Shown here piece by piece: positions 58,318 to 64,000 of a DNA stretch of 64,000 nucleotides. The translations under genes and the position numbers were made by a program. The notes beneath the pieces are model-generated. The model saw only the letters and a program-made list of their open reading frames with translations. It had not been told where the DNA came from and searched no databases. How positions within the stretch are numbered: the first letter of the stretch is position 1; each line of letters starts with the position of its first letter. This stretch comes from Granulosicoccus sp. (GTDB taxonomy: Bacteria > Pseudomonadota > Gammaproteobacteria > Granulosicoccales > Granulosicoccaceae): the NCBI GenBank assembly GCA_023301725.1, contig JALZUD010000050.1:1-64000 (forward strand), written 5' to 3'.

Positions 58318-59979
58318 ATGAGTACAGAAGAAGCACGAGAGTCGATGGAGTTTGATGTTGTCATTGTTGGTGCTGGACCCGCTGGTCTTGCAACAGCCTG
58401 CAAGCTCATGCAAATCGCTCAAGAATTGGAACAAGAGATCAGTGTTGTGGTTCTGGAGAAGGGCTCAGAGGTTGGTGCGCACATTCTCTCCGGTGCTGTT
58501 ATTGAGCCTCGCGCTCTGGACGAGCTGTTTCCTGACTGGAAAGAGGACGGTGCGCCATTAACAACGGCCGTGACGCGCGACGACATCATGTTTTTTACAA
58601 GCGCGACCAAGTCCGTGAAAATACCCGCTTTTCTATCACCTAAAACCATGCACAACCACGGTAACTACGTGGCCAGTTTAGGTAACCTGACGCGCTGGCT
58701 GGGCGAGAAAGCGGAAAGCTTAGGTGTTGAAATTTTTCCAGGGTTTGCAGCTGCCGAAATTTTGTTCCATGAGGATGGCCGTGTACGCGGTGTCGCAACG
58801 GGTGATATGGGACTGGACATCAACGGTGAGCCAAAAGATAGCCATGAACGTGGCATGGAGTTGCACGCCAAGTACACTATTTTTTCTGAAGGTTGTCGTG
58901 GGCATCTTGGCAAACAGCTTATTTCGCAATTCAAGCTCGATGCAGGCAAGTCACCGCAACACTACGGCATTGGTATCAAAGAGTTGTGGCAGATAGATCC
59001 TAGCAAGCACGAGCCCGGCGTTGTAGTTCACGGCGCAGGTTGGCCTTTGTCAGAGACAAAAACCACCGGTGGCGCCTTCATGTACCACCTAGAAAACAAC
59101 CAGGTGGTTGTTGGCCTTATCATTGACCTCAATTACTCCAACCCTCATTTGAGTACCTTTGATGAGTTTCAGCGATTCAAGCAGCATCCTGTTATCAAGG
59201 ATGTTTTAACAGGCGGAGAGCGAGTGAGCTACGGCGCTCGCGCCATTGTTAAGGGCGGCTTAAATTCCCTGCCCAAGATGAGCATGCCGGGCGCTTTGCT
59301 CGTGGGCTGCGATGCAGGCACACTGAATTTCGCCAAAATAAAAGGTACGCACACTGCTATGAAGTCTGGCATGGTGGCCGCTGAAACTATTGCTGCCGCT
59401 TTAGCTAAGGGCGATGAAGGACGCGAGCTTACCGAATACAACGATGCATTTCTGCAAAGCTGGGCAGGAGCAGAACTAACAAGTTCAAAAAATTGGGGGC
59501 CAGCCTTGCATAAATTTGGTATGTACCTTGGTGGTGCATATAACTACATTGATCAGAATTTTTTCAACGGCAAGTTGCCATTTAACTTTAAAGATGACAT
59601 AGCAGATCACGACACCCTGTTGCCTGCCAAAGATTGCACAAAGCCCGACTACCCCAGACCTGATGGCAAAATTAGTTTTGACAAACCTACCTCTGTATTT
59701 TTGTCGAACACAAATCATGAAGACAACCAACCAGTACATCTGCAGTTAATAGATACTGAAGTTCCCATGCAGATCAATTTGCCAAAATACGATGAACCTG
59801 CTCAACGCTATTGCCCGGTTGGTGTGTATGAGGTTGTGATTGAAGCTGACGTGCCGCACTTGCAAATCAATTCACAAAACTGCATTCATTGTAAAACCTG
59901 CGACATAAAAGATCCAAGCCAGAATATTAACTGGGTGGTGCCTGAAGGTGGCGGTGGCCCTAACTACCCGAACATGTAG
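58318..59979 (+). CDS. electron transfer flavoprotein-ubiquinone oxidoreductase
   Basis: ETF-QO accepts electrons from ETF, reduced by acyl-CoA and amino-acid dehydrogenases, and passes them to ubiquinone at the inner membrane. The 553 aa protein has an FAD-binding N-terminus (VVIVGAGPAGLATACKL) and a C-terminal 4Fe-4S site with CIHCKTCDIKDPSQNINWVV and upstream RYCPVGVYEV (Cys ligands). VASLGNLTRWLGEKAESLGV is the family phrase. ATG at 58318; upstream GAGTAAAA is a weak ribosome-binding site. Neighbouring genes do not encode ETF subunits. Confidence 0.96.
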   Translation: MSTEEARESMEFDVVIVGAGPAGLATACKLMQIAQELEQEISVVVLEKGSEVGAHILSGAVIEPRALDELFPDWKEDGAPLTTAVTRDDIMFFTSATKSVKIPAFLSPKTMHNHGNYVASLGNLTRWLGEKAESLGVEIFPGFAAAEILFHEDGRVRGVATGDMGLDINGEPKDSHERGMELHAKYTIFSEGCRGHLGKQLISQFKLDAGKSPQHYGIGIKELWQIDPSKHEPGVVVHGAGWPLSETKTTGGAFMYHLENNQVVVGLIIDLNYSNPHLSTFDEFQRFKQHPVIKDVLTGGERVSYGARAIVKGGLNSLPKMSMPGALLVGCDAGTLNFAKIKGTHTAMKSGMVAAETIAAALAKGDEGRELTEYNDAFLQSWAGAELTSSKNWGPALHKFGMYLGGAYNYIDQNFFNGKLPFNFKDDIADHDTLLPAKDCTKPDYPRPDGKISFDKPTSVFLSNTNHEDNQPVHLQLIDTEVPMQINLPKYDEPAQRYCPVGVYEVVIEADVPHLQINSQNCIHCKTCDIKDPSQNINWVVPEGGGGPNYPNM

Positions 59980-59989
59980 ACCGTACTCT

Positions 59990-61069
59990 ATGAATATTCT
60001 CAACAATCCTCATCGTGGTGTTGGCCTAATATCGCTGGGCGTGCAAAAGGCATCTAAAGTATCAGGGAATGTAAACGCCGTGCGCAGCTTGTTACAAGCC
60101 TGCCCAGTGGCTTTTGCCTCTCCCTTGGTAGATTGCTACTCCTTGGCAAAGAGCTTAAACATAAATTCACTGCACATCAAAGATGAGCGTGAACGCATGG
60201 GCTTAGGTAGCTTTAAATCACTAGGGGCGACCTACGCTATTGCCAAGGCGGCTGTTGCTGCCAACGGCGGCCAGATAGGTGAACCTGAGCAAATGGCTGA
60301 TGCTCTTTCAGGCAAGGTGTATGTCACCGCTAGCGCTGGAAATCACGGAATATCAACAGCCGCTGGTGCTCGAATATTCGGCGCCAAAGCCATTATCTAT
60401 CTTGCTGAGACGGTGCCTTCAGGGTTTGCAGAAAAACTGACACGCTTCGGTGCTGAAGTTGTCATTGAAGGCAACAACTACGAAGCTAGTCATGAAGCTG
60501 CGGTAGCACTGTGCGAGACGCAGGGACACACGCTCATTGCAGACTCAACCTGGGAGGGCTATTCAGGTGGTCGTGACATCATGGAAGGCTACTTGGCGAT
60601 GCCTGAAGAAGCCTCAGTGCAAATTCCACAAGCACCCACACATATTTTTCTTCAAGCGGGCGTGGGTGGTTTGGCAGCTGCTGCAGCTAGACACGCAAGA
60701 GATCACTGGGGTGATGATCCCGTCATTTGCGTTGTCGAACCTAGTGCAGCCCCTGCCCTATTTGCTGGTATTGAAGCGGGCGGCGTTGTCCATGCAGCAG
60801 GCCCTGTATCCAACATGGGCCGACTAGATTGTAAAGAGGCCTCTTTGCTAGCGCTGGATTGTCTGGCCAAAGAAGCTGATGCGTTCATGACGATAGATGA
60901 CGAGTTTGTTGCACAAGCTATTACTCAGTTAGAAGCAGAGTCGCTGGAAACATCGCCATCAGGGGGTGCTGGATTTGCGGGACTTGTAGCGGCCGTGCAG
61001 GATGGGGTGCTGGGCATCAATGATCAGAGTCGTGTGCTTATTTACTTGTCTGAGGGGCCGTCTGACTAA
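59990..61069 (+). CDS. PLP-dependent lyase, diaminopropionate ammonia-lyase-like
   Basis: A 359 aa fold-type II PLP enzyme. The PLP lysine is in GSFKSLGATYAIAKAA, the phosphate-binding loop is ASAGNHGISTAAGARIFG, and IADSTWEGYSGG and LQAGVGGLAAAAARHARD continue the fold. These parts match 2,3-diaminopropionate ammonia-lyase (YgeX/DpaL), which converts diaminopropionate to pyruvate and ammonia. The usual protein is ~400 aa, so this one is ~40 residues shorter. ATG 59990 is the better start; the track start lies in the ETF-QO gene, whose stop is 10 bases upstream. Threonine dehydratase-like activity is an alternative. Confidence 0.82.
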   Translation: MNILNNPHRGVGLISLGVQKASKVSGNVNAVRSLLQACPVAFASPLVDCYSLAKSLNINSLHIKDERERMGLGSFKSLGATYAIAKAAVAANGGQIGEPEQMADALSGKVYVTASAGNHGISTAAGARIFGAKAIIYLAETVPSGFAEKLTRFGAEVVIEGNNYEASHEAAVALCETQGHTLIADSTWEGYSGGRDIMEGYLAMPEEASVQIPQAPTHIFLQAGVGGLAAAAARHARDHWGDDPVICVVEPSAAPALFAGIEAGGVVHAAGPVSNMGRLDCKEASLLALDCLAKEADAFMTIDDEFVAQAITQLEAESLETSPSGGAGFAGLVAAVQDGVLGINDQSRVLIYLSEGPSD

Positions 61070-61947
61070 TTTTCGGCTTGCGTTGCTATCGAATTTTGCT
61101 GTTCACGGTAGAGAAAATACAAACCACTGATCACCACTACAGCGCCGCCCCATAAGGTATGGCTGCTGGGTGCGTGAGACCAAAGCATGTAGTCAAAAAA
61201 TATAGCCCAAAGCAGCGCTGTATATTCAATGGGCGCCAACACCGATGCTTCACGACTGCCAAAGGCTTGGGTAATAGCTAGGTGCCCTAGTAGTGCCAAC
61301 ATCGCCACACCAAAAATTAGAACCCATAATTTAAGCGTGAGCGGTTGCCATACAAGGGGCAAAGCACAGAGTGCAACTATGCCAAGTCCGGCATTAAAAT
61401 AGAAAACCAGACTAGTTGTTGATTCAGTTTTCGCCATGATTTTGCCAGAGACAAACAAAACGGCGTAACTGAGGCTGCCAACAAGTGCCAGTACATACCC
61501 TACGGAAAACTCGTCCAAGCCTGGGTTAATCGCAATAGCCACGCCCACGTAACCCGCCAAAATCGCAAACCAACGATGCATGCCAAAGCGTTCCTTAAGT
61601 ACTAGCACTGATGCAATCGCAATAAACAGTGTTCCAGTAAAAAAGACCACGGTGGCATCCGCCAGCGGTAGATACGCAAGCGATCCAAAAAAACCACCAA
61701 CAGCTGTCAACCCCACCATGCCACGCAAGATATGCGCACCAAGACGTTTGGTGCGCAGCTTGCTCAATTTCTTTTGAAACCCAAGAGTACCTAGCAATAC
61801 AGTCGTGATAATGAAGCTACGAATCGCAAGAATGGTTACTGTGTGAACCTTATTCTCAATCAGTATCTTGGCCAATACATCCATACAGGATAGAGCAAAG
61901 ATAGCCAGCGCCATCAACCACATGCCACGTACAGTTGATGGGGTCAA
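61066..61947 (-). CDS. EamA/DMT-superfamily transporter
   Basis: A 293 aa membrane protein with ten helices and two EamA repeats: MDVLAKILIENKVHTVTILA, LADATVVFFTGTLFIAIASV and LKERFGMHRWFAILAGYVGV in the first half, and PIEYTALLWAIFFDYMLW in the second. It resembles the 8617-9531 protein in plan. Substrate unknown. The start is TTG at 61947, or ATG at 61923. Its stop overlaps that of the ammonia-lyase-like gene by four bases, convergently. The disordered-protein gene ends 15 bases upstream on the same strand, so the two may share a message. Confidence 0.88.
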   Translation of the reverse strand: MTPSTVRGMWLMALAIFALSCMDVLAKILIENKVHTVTILAIRSFIITTVLLGTLGFQKKLSKLRTKRLGAHILRGMVGLTAVGGFFGSLAYLPLADATVVFFTGTLFIAIASVLVLKERFGMHRWFAILAGYVGVAIAINPGLDEFSVGYVLALVGSLSYAVLFVSGKIMAKTESTTSLVFYFNAGLGIVALCALPLVWQPLTLKLWVLIFGVAMLALLGHLAITQAFGSREASVLAPIEYTALLWAIFFDYMLWSHAPSSHTLWGGAVVVISGLYFLYREQQNSIATQAEN

Positions 61948-61962
61948 TTAGTGCTAAACCGT

Positions 61963-63291
61963 TTAGTCAGCACCAGAAGAATCAGTAGCTGGTGGCTTCT
62001 TCGGGCTGGCCGCACGACGCGGCTTCGGCTTGTCTGCAGCATCAGCTTTTGGCTTAGGTGATTCCGTTTTCTCAGCTTTCGGCTTAGCCGCAACTTTGGA
62101 TGCCGTTTTCTTGGCTACCTTTTTCTTGGCTTTAGGCTTGGCATCTGCGGATGAATTTTCGCTAGCAGCAGCCTGCGTTGCAACTTTAGGTACAGCCTCA
62201 CTCGCTTCAGGTCGCTTTCTCGGCGCACGTGGTTTTCTTGCTACAGGCTCTTTTACTCGATCTGCAGATGCAGGAGCTGTATTGGCAGCAGGTGCAGGTG
62301 CTGAATTTACGACTGGAGCCGCAGCCTGCTGCACCAGTCTCTCAGGCGCTCGTTGCGACTGATCCACAGACGTTGAAGTTTGCGTTGCAGGAGCTTGTGA
62401 TTGGTCTGGGTTGGTGCTTGGATTAGCACCCTGGTTGTTATTCGGGTTGTTATTCGGGTTGTCTGAATCGGGCCGGTTCTGATTCCTGTTTCGGTTATTT
62501 CTGTTGTTTCGGTTCTGACCGCGATTTTGATTGCGGTTGTTTCTGTTCTGCTTGTTGCCCTCGCCTTGACCCTGACCTTGATTGCGACGCTGATTAGGGT
62601 TTTGATTGGGATTCTGGTTAGGGTTTTGGGCGTTGGCTTGCGCACCGCCTTGCTGACGGTTGTTGCGCTGTTGGTTGTTGCCAGCGTTTCGACCCTGCCG
62701 AGGTTGAGCATTACCCGATCTGGATCGACCTTGAGCATTGCCACCGCGCTCGTTTCTCTGGTTGGTTCGACCTCTGCCTCGCGGGTTATTAGTACGTGCA
62801 CCCATCACCAAGCTACCCACTTGATAGGGATCTTCCATGCCAATCAGGTTACTGTCGGAGGGAAAGCGATTATTGACGTTACAACGATCACGATTACCAA
62901 AGTTGTCGTCCTCGTTCTCAACAAAGGCTGGCTGTTCGGGTAAAGCGCGATTACCGATGTTGTCCATTGCCTCGGTGATTTCGCGAGGCGGACGCAATGC
63001 TCGGTTGCCTTTCTCTATACGGTTGCCGGCGTTATCATCATCACGGCCGCGGCCGCGGTTATTACTATTGCGGCCACCTTTACGTTTGTTATTCCGGTTG
63101 CGATTGTTTGTTCCGCCTCCGGCAGCACCTTGCGCGCCAGATCTTTGGCTGTTGTTGGGATTGTTCCGACCCCGACCGCGTCTGGGGGCAGTACGTGACC
63201 CGCCTTCGCTGTTGTTGTCATTGCGACCGCCACCTGCATCAGCCGAACCACCGGAGCTTGCTCCAGAATCTTGAGAATCGCTGCTTGTCAT
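61963..63291 (-). CDS. large intrinsically disordered N/R/G-rich protein with Lys/Ala-rich tail
   Basis: A 442 aa protein with almost no hydrophobic residues. Residues ~1-90 are Ser/Gly then Arg/Asn-rich with RGRGR blocks. Residues ~95-165 are the only stretch that looks foldable (PREITEAMDNIGNRALPEQP, RFPSDSNLIGMEDPYQVGSL). Residues ~165-320 are Asn/Arg/Gln/Gly-rich with NPNQNPNQNPNQRR and NRNNRNNRNRNQNR. The tail is histone-H1-like (AKKKVAKKTASKVAAKPKAE). I recognise no family; the make-up suggests nucleic-acid binding, perhaps RNA, or condensate formation. ATG 63291 has no Shine-Dalgarno of its own but overlaps the stop of a five-codon leader. The antisense frames are shadows. Confidence 0.75.
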   Translation of the reverse strand: MTSSDSQDSGASSGGSADAGGGRNDNNSEGGSRTAPRRGRGRNNPNNSQRSGAQGAAGGGTNNRNRNNKRKGGRNSNNRGRGRDDDNAGNRIEKGNRALRPPREITEAMDNIGNRALPEQPAFVENEDDNFGNRDRCNVNNRFPSDSNLIGMEDPYQVGSLVMGARTNNPRGRGRTNQRNERGGNAQGRSRSGNAQPRQGRNAGNNQQRNNRQQGGAQANAQNPNQNPNQNPNQRRNQGQGQGEGNKQNRNNRNQNRGQNRNNRNNRNRNQNRPDSDNPNNNPNNNQGANPSTNPDQSQAPATQTSTSVDQSQRAPERLVQQAAAPVVNSAPAPAANTAPASADRVKEPVARKPRAPRKRPEASEAVPKVATQAAASENSSADAKPKAKKKVAKKTASKVAAKPKAEKTESPKPKADAADKPKPRRAASPKKPPATDSSGAD

Positions 63292-63305
63292 ACTACTAAC
63301 ATCAT
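63288..63305 (-). promoter_or_regulatory. five-codon leader ORF overlapping the disordered-protein start
   Basis: AAGG eight bases upstream precedes ATG ATG TTA GTA GTA TGA (MMLVV). The TGA overlaps the ATG of the main gene as ATGA. The main ATG has no ribosome-binding site, so translation could depend on termination-reinitiation from this leader. A chance arrangement cannot be excluded. Confidence 0.4.
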
Positions 63306-63508
63306 AATGGTTACCTTACTGTCGTAACGATCGGTCGTCATACAGATTCGAGCCTCACAGCCTGTCAAGGGCTGCATACTAATGAGATCATCGTTTTGAT
63401 GACCGGACCCACGAGGCACACAGATCAATGGGCCAATCTTGCTATCGACTCCAGTTAGTGCTTTCGGATAGTGCTTTGGAATCGTACCCAAGAATACCAC
63501 TTGAGAAT

Positions 63509-63537
63509 AGTATCTAAAAAAGGCCGTATTTGGGCAA
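63509..63537 (-). promoter_or_regulatory. candidate sigma70 promoter for the disordered-protein gene
   Basis: On the minus strand TTGCCC (63532-63537) and GATACT (63509-63514) lie 17 bases apart; each matches the consensus at four of six positions. It would give a leader of about 210 bases. A 14-base palindrome (63561-63574) lies about 65 bases upstream of the predicted start point. Confidence 0.3.
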
Positions 63538-63560
63538 GCAGTTAGGGTTGTGCTCATGAA

Positions 63561-63574
63561 CCCGACTAGTCGGG
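63561..63574. repeat. perfect 14-base palindrome CCCGACTAGTCGGG
   Basis: The sequence equals its reverse complement. It lies upstream of the candidate minus-strand promoter and shares its GACTAGTC core with the palindrome at 63848. It may be an operator or a hairpin; no T-tract follows. Confidence 0.55.
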
Positions 63575-63847
63575 TGCTGAATTTGGGAACGATACGTAGT
63601 GTTACCACCAAATCCGAGCGCTGCCCCTTATTATGCACTACATTACTCGACTGTGCCTTTTGCTCAGATCTGTGCCAAACGTTCTGGATCTTTTACCACA
63701 TCGACAACACAGCTACGACATCGGTTGCAACACAAGATAGTGTAAATTGTATGTCTATATACTTGCGTAAACTTTGTTGCCCCTAGTGCCACGTTTCTTC
63801 AGTCTGGCATCTCAAAGCATCAGGTTTCTCAGCCGTCCTTTTTAAGG

Positions 63848-63861
63848 CTTGACTAGTCAAG
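63848..63861. repeat. perfect 14-base palindrome CTTGACTAGTCAAG
   Basis: A perfect palindrome 25 bases upstream of the probable TTG start of the SulP gene, with the same GACTAGTC core as the palindrome at 63561. The position suits an operator for the SulP gene. Confidence 0.55.
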
Positions 63862-63885
63862 TCGATAATCTCTCGTGATATACCA

Positions 63886-64000
63886 TTGAAAACTGAATCT
63901 CTAAGCGGCTGGCAGCACGAATGGCTGGGTAACATACGAGCCGATATTCTGGCAGGCCTAGTAGTAGCGCTGGCACTCATACCAGAAGCCATCGCATTCT
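63886..64000 (+). CDS. SulP-family anion transporter, N-terminal part (cut by window edge)
   Basis: The plus-strand frame running off the right edge encodes [20 protein letters not shown] followed by PEAIAF, the start of the first membrane helices in SulP/SLC26 sulfate or bicarbonate permeases. The track lacks it. The frame is open from 63853; the likeliest start is TTG at 63886 ([12 protein letters not shown] follows), because no ATG is in frame before it. No strong ribosome-binding site precedes it. The ion and any C-terminal STAS domain lie outside the window. Confidence 0.85.

Follow-up and report, generated by a model that had tools for sequence, protein, structure and literature searches.

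In bacteria, disordered tails with short motifs hold the assemblies of RNA decay together, and such motifs are known mainly from RNase E. This enzyme scaffolds its partners through short motifs, which in the C-terminal scaffolding domain of P. aeruginosa RNase E include NDPR, AR1, AR4 and REER (PMC11964227), and in Caulobacter it serves as the scaffold of BR-bodies (PMC10412687). The poly(A) polymerase PAP I of E. coli has regions that bind RNase E and RhlB, both of them proteins of the degradosome (PMC9764084), and the degradosome can recruit RhlE and SrmB as alternative helicases (PMC3997798).

The window, i.e. the whole stretch of 64,000 nucleotides of Granulosicoccus DNA that was analysed, contains a gene for a low-complexity protein of 442 amino acids, which can be divided as follows:

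61963..63291, minus strand: gene of the N/R-rich, predicted disordered protein, 442 aa, stop codon included (open reading frame, codon pattern, AlphaFold2)
63031..63291, minus strand: N-terminal arm, residues 1-87, G/N/R/S-rich with RGRGR blocks (composition)
62794..63030, minus strand: conserved core, residues 88-166 (orthologue identity, pN/pS, invariant alignment columns)
62392..62793, minus strand: N/Q/R-rich arm, residues 167-300, free of aromatic residues (composition)
61966..62391, minus strand: K/A/P-rich H1-like tail, residues 301-442 (composition, orthologue alignment)

The open reading frame runs from 63291 to 61963 and has a single in-frame start downstream of an upstream in-frame stop. 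A comparison with the copy in the nearest relative (G019) revealed 53/38/151 substitutions at codon positions 1/2/3, a dS of 0.770 and a dN of 0.108, and because of this substitution pattern and dN/dS ratio the frame is a real, coding gene. The composition (N 16, A 13, R 12, G 10, P 9, S 8 and Q 8%), with four aromatic residues, 6.3% order-promoting residues and a pI of 11.4, agrees with a preliminary description of this DNA, which had reported RGRGR blocks, N/R/Q repeats and an H1-like tail, and the protein frame is conserved in relatives. The disorder supposed there was borne out by AlphaFold2, which was run on a shallow alignment of 10 orthologue sequences and returned a mean pLDDT of 43.5, a pTM of 0.14 and no secondary structure; the lack of any stable predicted fold supports an intrinsically disordered protein. 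Within the H1-like tail the sequence KPRAPRK is invariant across 10 aligned orthologues.

Conservation is concentrated in the core, which is 81-97% identical to six orthologues, compared with 28-84% for the arms. With a pN of 0.016-0.135 versus a pS of 0.45-0.96 the core is under strong purifying selection and is flanked by freely diverging arms. It contains GNR motifs at residues 89, 95, 113 and 132, followed by NNRFPSDSNLIGMEDPYQVGSLV from residue 140 onwards, and the nearly unchanging stretch amounts to about 75 residues. This region coincides with residues ~95-165, through which homologues had been suggested to be recognizable. The divergent proteins of G003 and G017 retain GNVVNINNRFPSDSNL and one GNR; the H1-like tail is missing in both.

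Searches with the protein against Pfam, NCBIfam (up to E 1), PHROGs and PDB gave no match. Profile searches detected the stand-alone gene in 13/27 Granulosicoccus genomes, which form one clade, and in none outside the genus, and matches of the core profile in 369 genomes of the class were confined to Granulosicoccus, as were matches of core patterns in GTDB genome contigs. In the genome of the window itself the DN-x-GNR motif occurs only in this gene. Like the C-terminal domain of RNase E, the predicted protein is disordered, Arg-rich and equipped with conserved short motifs, and the RNase E C-terminal domain of the same genome has similar N/R/G-rich stretches; however, the 442-aa protein is stand-alone, and nuclease domain and NDPR motif are absent. 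With the BR-body scaffold it shares, as an analogy only, the low-complexity character of a disordered scaffold linked to RNA decay, but it is not an enzyme. Of the features of an RNase E-type scaffold, the RNase E/G catalytic domain is missing according to Pfam, and the genome encodes RNase E at another locus; an array of conserved motifs, which may bind a partner, is present. None of 18 family RNase E genes, of which three are truncated by contig ends, showed the DxxGNR block, and RNase E would therefore be at most a partner and not another carrier. It is not PcnB either: the catalytic head and RNA-binding domains (TIGR01942 / PF01743, PF12627, PF12626) are lacking, and the genome has a separate PcnB.

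The genomic surroundings are shared by most carriers, in which the locus lies between two landmark genes:

58318..59979, plus strand: ETF-ubiquinone oxidoreductase (ETF-QO) gene, syntenic landmark on the 3' side
63886..64000, plus strand: start of the divergent SulP-type transporter gene (taken from the copy in G019), a conserved neighbour that runs off the window

The window and G001 have additional genes in between, and G019 has its ETF-QO gene on a different contig. In the window (59948-61947) an ammonia-lyase-like gene and an EamA-type transporter gene separate the 442-aa gene from ETF-QO; in several relatives, G023 and G011 among them, the orthologue directly adjoins ETF-QO. In the divergent members G003 and G017 the gene follows 67 and 27 bases after a gene for an RhlE-type DEAD-box helicase, for which the best NCBIfam model in G003 is RhlE, with a score below the equivalog cut-off. 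The helicase and pcnB genes of the window genome are on other contigs. An RhlE-type helicase gene also adjoins a SulP gene in G028, a member of another genus of the family (L065 1-2613), as in G003 and G017, which suggests that the helicase-SulP neighbourhood is old.

PcnB sequences were gathered family-wide, and for G002 and the window genome TIGR01942 together with three poly(A)-polymerase domains of Pfam established PcnB identity. The best match of the core profile beyond the orthologues is the C-terminal tail of PcnB from G028 (E 0.0026), and the PcnB C-terminal extensions of G002, G008, G021 and G025, which are devoid of the stand-alone gene, contain an N-W-D-D/E-D-N-x-GNR-A-x-P block. 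Hence, motif-tailed PcnB is carried by four Granulosicoccus species and by G028 in one other genus. The 442-aa protein has a D-N-x-GNR-A-x-P block within its N/R-rich, predicted disordered sequence as well, although the match is short, with 14 columns in hhalign (probability 75.7%, E 2.4e-5) and up to ~50 in Smith-Waterman alignments of compositionally biased sequence. Scores of the five tails against the window core were reached by 0-12 of 1000 composition-preserving shuffles, and against the core of G011 by 0 of 1000, while eight control PcnB tails were mostly within chance; the control tail of G023 reached 9/1000 against the G011 core via a KPPR stretch. In the reverse direction, a profile of the PcnB tails matched the stand-alone protein weakly (E 0.007-0.57) in 10/13 carriers, and the protein of the window was not recovered at E <= 1; E-values for single genomes are weak. 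The PcnB tails lack the most invariant part of the core, NNRFPSDSN...GSLV. A scan for DDN-x-GNRA in the 369 class genomes returned two matches (C109 of the window genome, and G342), both discarded as neither is within an open frame encoding the motif; the reversed-pattern control gave one match.

The occurrence of both forms is complementary. The GNR block was not found in the PcnB tails of carriers of the stand-alone gene, and the stand-alone gene and a motif-tailed PcnB are never in the same genome among those examined. In trees of ETF-QO (without the window genome, G013 and G019) and of PcnB (including all three), the carriers group in one clade, the four motif-tailed PcnBs form a second clade of Granulosicoccus, and G028 falls outside the genus. 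G007, which groups with the carriers in the PcnB tree, is 68% complete, and the gene was not detected there. Eight Granulosicoccus members have neither form, and therefore they either can do without the function or fulfil it by other means. PcnB of G016 and G005 (L097, L098) has a different C-terminal extension, which is N/G/H/Q-rich and lacks the GNR block. Taken together, the motif blocks of the core and of the PcnB tails are similar and occur in a complementary manner, and their resemblance is consistent with common descent. The two forms also share the disordered, N/R-rich context, and differ in that the 442-aa protein is encoded by a separate gene, has no catalytic domain and contains NNRFPSDSNLIGMEDPYQVGSLV and the H1-like tail.

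An RNA-related role of the protein is supported indirectly by the motif block common to the PcnB tails and by the adjacency to the RhlE-type helicase gene. The reading that we favour, with about even confidence, is that of a stand-alone, disordered, motif-bearing accessory of RNA decay or polyadenylation in one Granulosicoccus clade. Here, the Arg/Lys-rich low-complexity arms would provide a loose hold on RNA, and the core would act as a cassette of short linear motifs that docks onto a conserved partner, for which PcnB, an RhlE-type helicase and the RNase E complex are the most plausible candidates. As PcnB of sister species has a similar GNR block in its C-terminal tail, the stand-alone gene could be read as the PcnB tail cassette acting in trans, a disordered scaffold that would link an enzyme of RNA decay with RNA or with a partner. 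The formation of condensates by such a protein is conceivable.

It is possible, although in our estimation unlikely, that the protein is a stand-alone RNA chaperone or a ribosome-associated disordered protein unlinked to PcnB, and that the GNR likeness reflects convergence in N/R/D-rich sequence. An N/R/G-rich composition is indeed common to the arms, the RNase E C-terminal domain and the RhlE tails, the shared block is short, and the other weak matches of the PcnB-tail profile are unrelated proteins, some with D-rich repeats of the calcium-binding type. However, the shuffles, which preserve composition, rarely or never reach the match, the PcnB tails of the carriers lack the block, and no genome examined has both forms. 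The GNR blocks may be of common descent or may have converged on the same binding motif, and either would support a shared partner. Considerably less probable is a DNA-binding, histone H1-like nucleoid protein whose working part would be the K/A/P tail. Histone H1-like or AlgP-like tails are lysine-rich with K/A/P-rich C-terminal repeats, and the 442-aa protein resembles them in this respect: lysine-rich AKKTASK-like repeats together with KPRAPRK are conserved in the tail of 11 close orthologues. Nevertheless, the tail diverges fast and is not the conserved part of the protein, the divergent homologues of G003 and G017 lack it and still keep the NNRFPSDSN core motif, and neither Pfam nor NCBIfam connects the protein to such a family.

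The preliminary description had also suggested that the gene could be controlled by translational coupling to a short upstream frame, with a candidate promoter and a leader of ~210 bases. The elements concerned are:

63288..63305, minus strand: five-codon leader MMLVV, its TGA overlapping the main ATG (ATGA); the same leader in the window genome (G000) and G019 only
63313..63317, minus strand: SD-like AAGGT ahead of the leader ATG, identical in G019
63398..63544, minus strand: 147-bp stretch with the single reconstructed promoter candidate, absent from G019 and without another copy in the fetched loci

The leader itself (ATGATGTTAGTAGTATGA, 63305-63288) is present as described: AAGGT is positioned 8 nt before its ATG, which is normal SD spacing, and for the main ATG no SD is present at such a distance, the nearest SD-like site being 21-22 nt away. 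After shuffling, 1.8% of upstream sequences contained an in-frame mini-ORF of <=20 codons with an SD-like 4-mer. Immediately ahead of the main ATG, 29 bases that include leader, SD and ATGA overlap are identical in G000 and G019, within a region otherwise of ~80% identity. Ribosomes in these two species may initiate at the five-codon leader and a second time at the overlapping ATGA, and translational coupling is thus possible there. It is not a conserved control, because the leader is restricted to this pair and most other relatives have AAGGTGA ~10 nt before the main ATG. In detail, an AGGTGA ends 10 nt ahead of the main ATG in six of the other nine close relatives (G006, G011, G013, G015, G018 and G024, upstream sequence CAAGGTGATAG), and a weaker GTGA or GGTGA is found at that place in another two. 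The SD in the upstream sequence of G023 (CAGAGTGATAG) likewise ends 10 nt before the ATG, G026 has GGTGA at 10 nt and a mini-ORF of its own (MVTLDV), and the sequence of G001 (CAGGTAAG) ends 9 nt before the ATG. The apparent mini-ORFs of the relatives with CAAGGTGATAG or CAGAGTGATAG (VIVQT and others of the form VIxxx) begin at the GTG within the SD, and the divergent homologues of G003 and G017 have no mini-ORF of the MMLVV type. Leader coupling would accordingly operate in two species at most, or perhaps in three.

The promoter was not upheld: a search of 61900-64000 yielded no consensus sigma-70-type site (shuffle mean 1.4), and the reconstructed candidate (TTGCCC/TACTAT at -246/-221) falls into the 147-bp stretch missing from G019. 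The ~210-base leader is not common even to the nearest relative. We thus regard it as very improbable, and as the least probable of the readings weighed here, that a condensate protein has its output set mainly by translational coupling to MMLVV, despite the identity of the leader in G019.

A riboswitch in the leader was considered and set aside, since no Rfam element is found near the 442-aa gene. In seven relatives a nearly invariant 29-nt element, GTGAGACCTGAGAGAGATTnACCTTTGCC, is located ~200 nt upstream of the orthologous gene, with a conserved GTATACT farther upstream:

L037:7563-7960, minus strand: region of GTGAGACCTGAGAGAGATTnACCTTTGCC, with equivalents in G024, G018, G013, G023, G015 and G006

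The element has no Rfam match and does not occur in the window with 3 mismatches allowed. It is possibly a regulatory element in the 5' leader of the 442-aa gene or of the divergent SulP gene.

Returning to the accessory of RNA decay that we favour, a tentative and somewhat doubtful extension is that the cassette has moved between a covalent PcnB tail and a free scaffold encoded by its own gene, so that an RNA-decay assembly would be built in cis or in trans within one genus. If true, the 442-aa protein and the PcnB tails would be a natural cis/trans experiment on the evolution of RNA-decay assemblies, the core would offer a concrete motif for binding-partner tests, and a likely pathway would be assigned to an otherwise unannotated protein.
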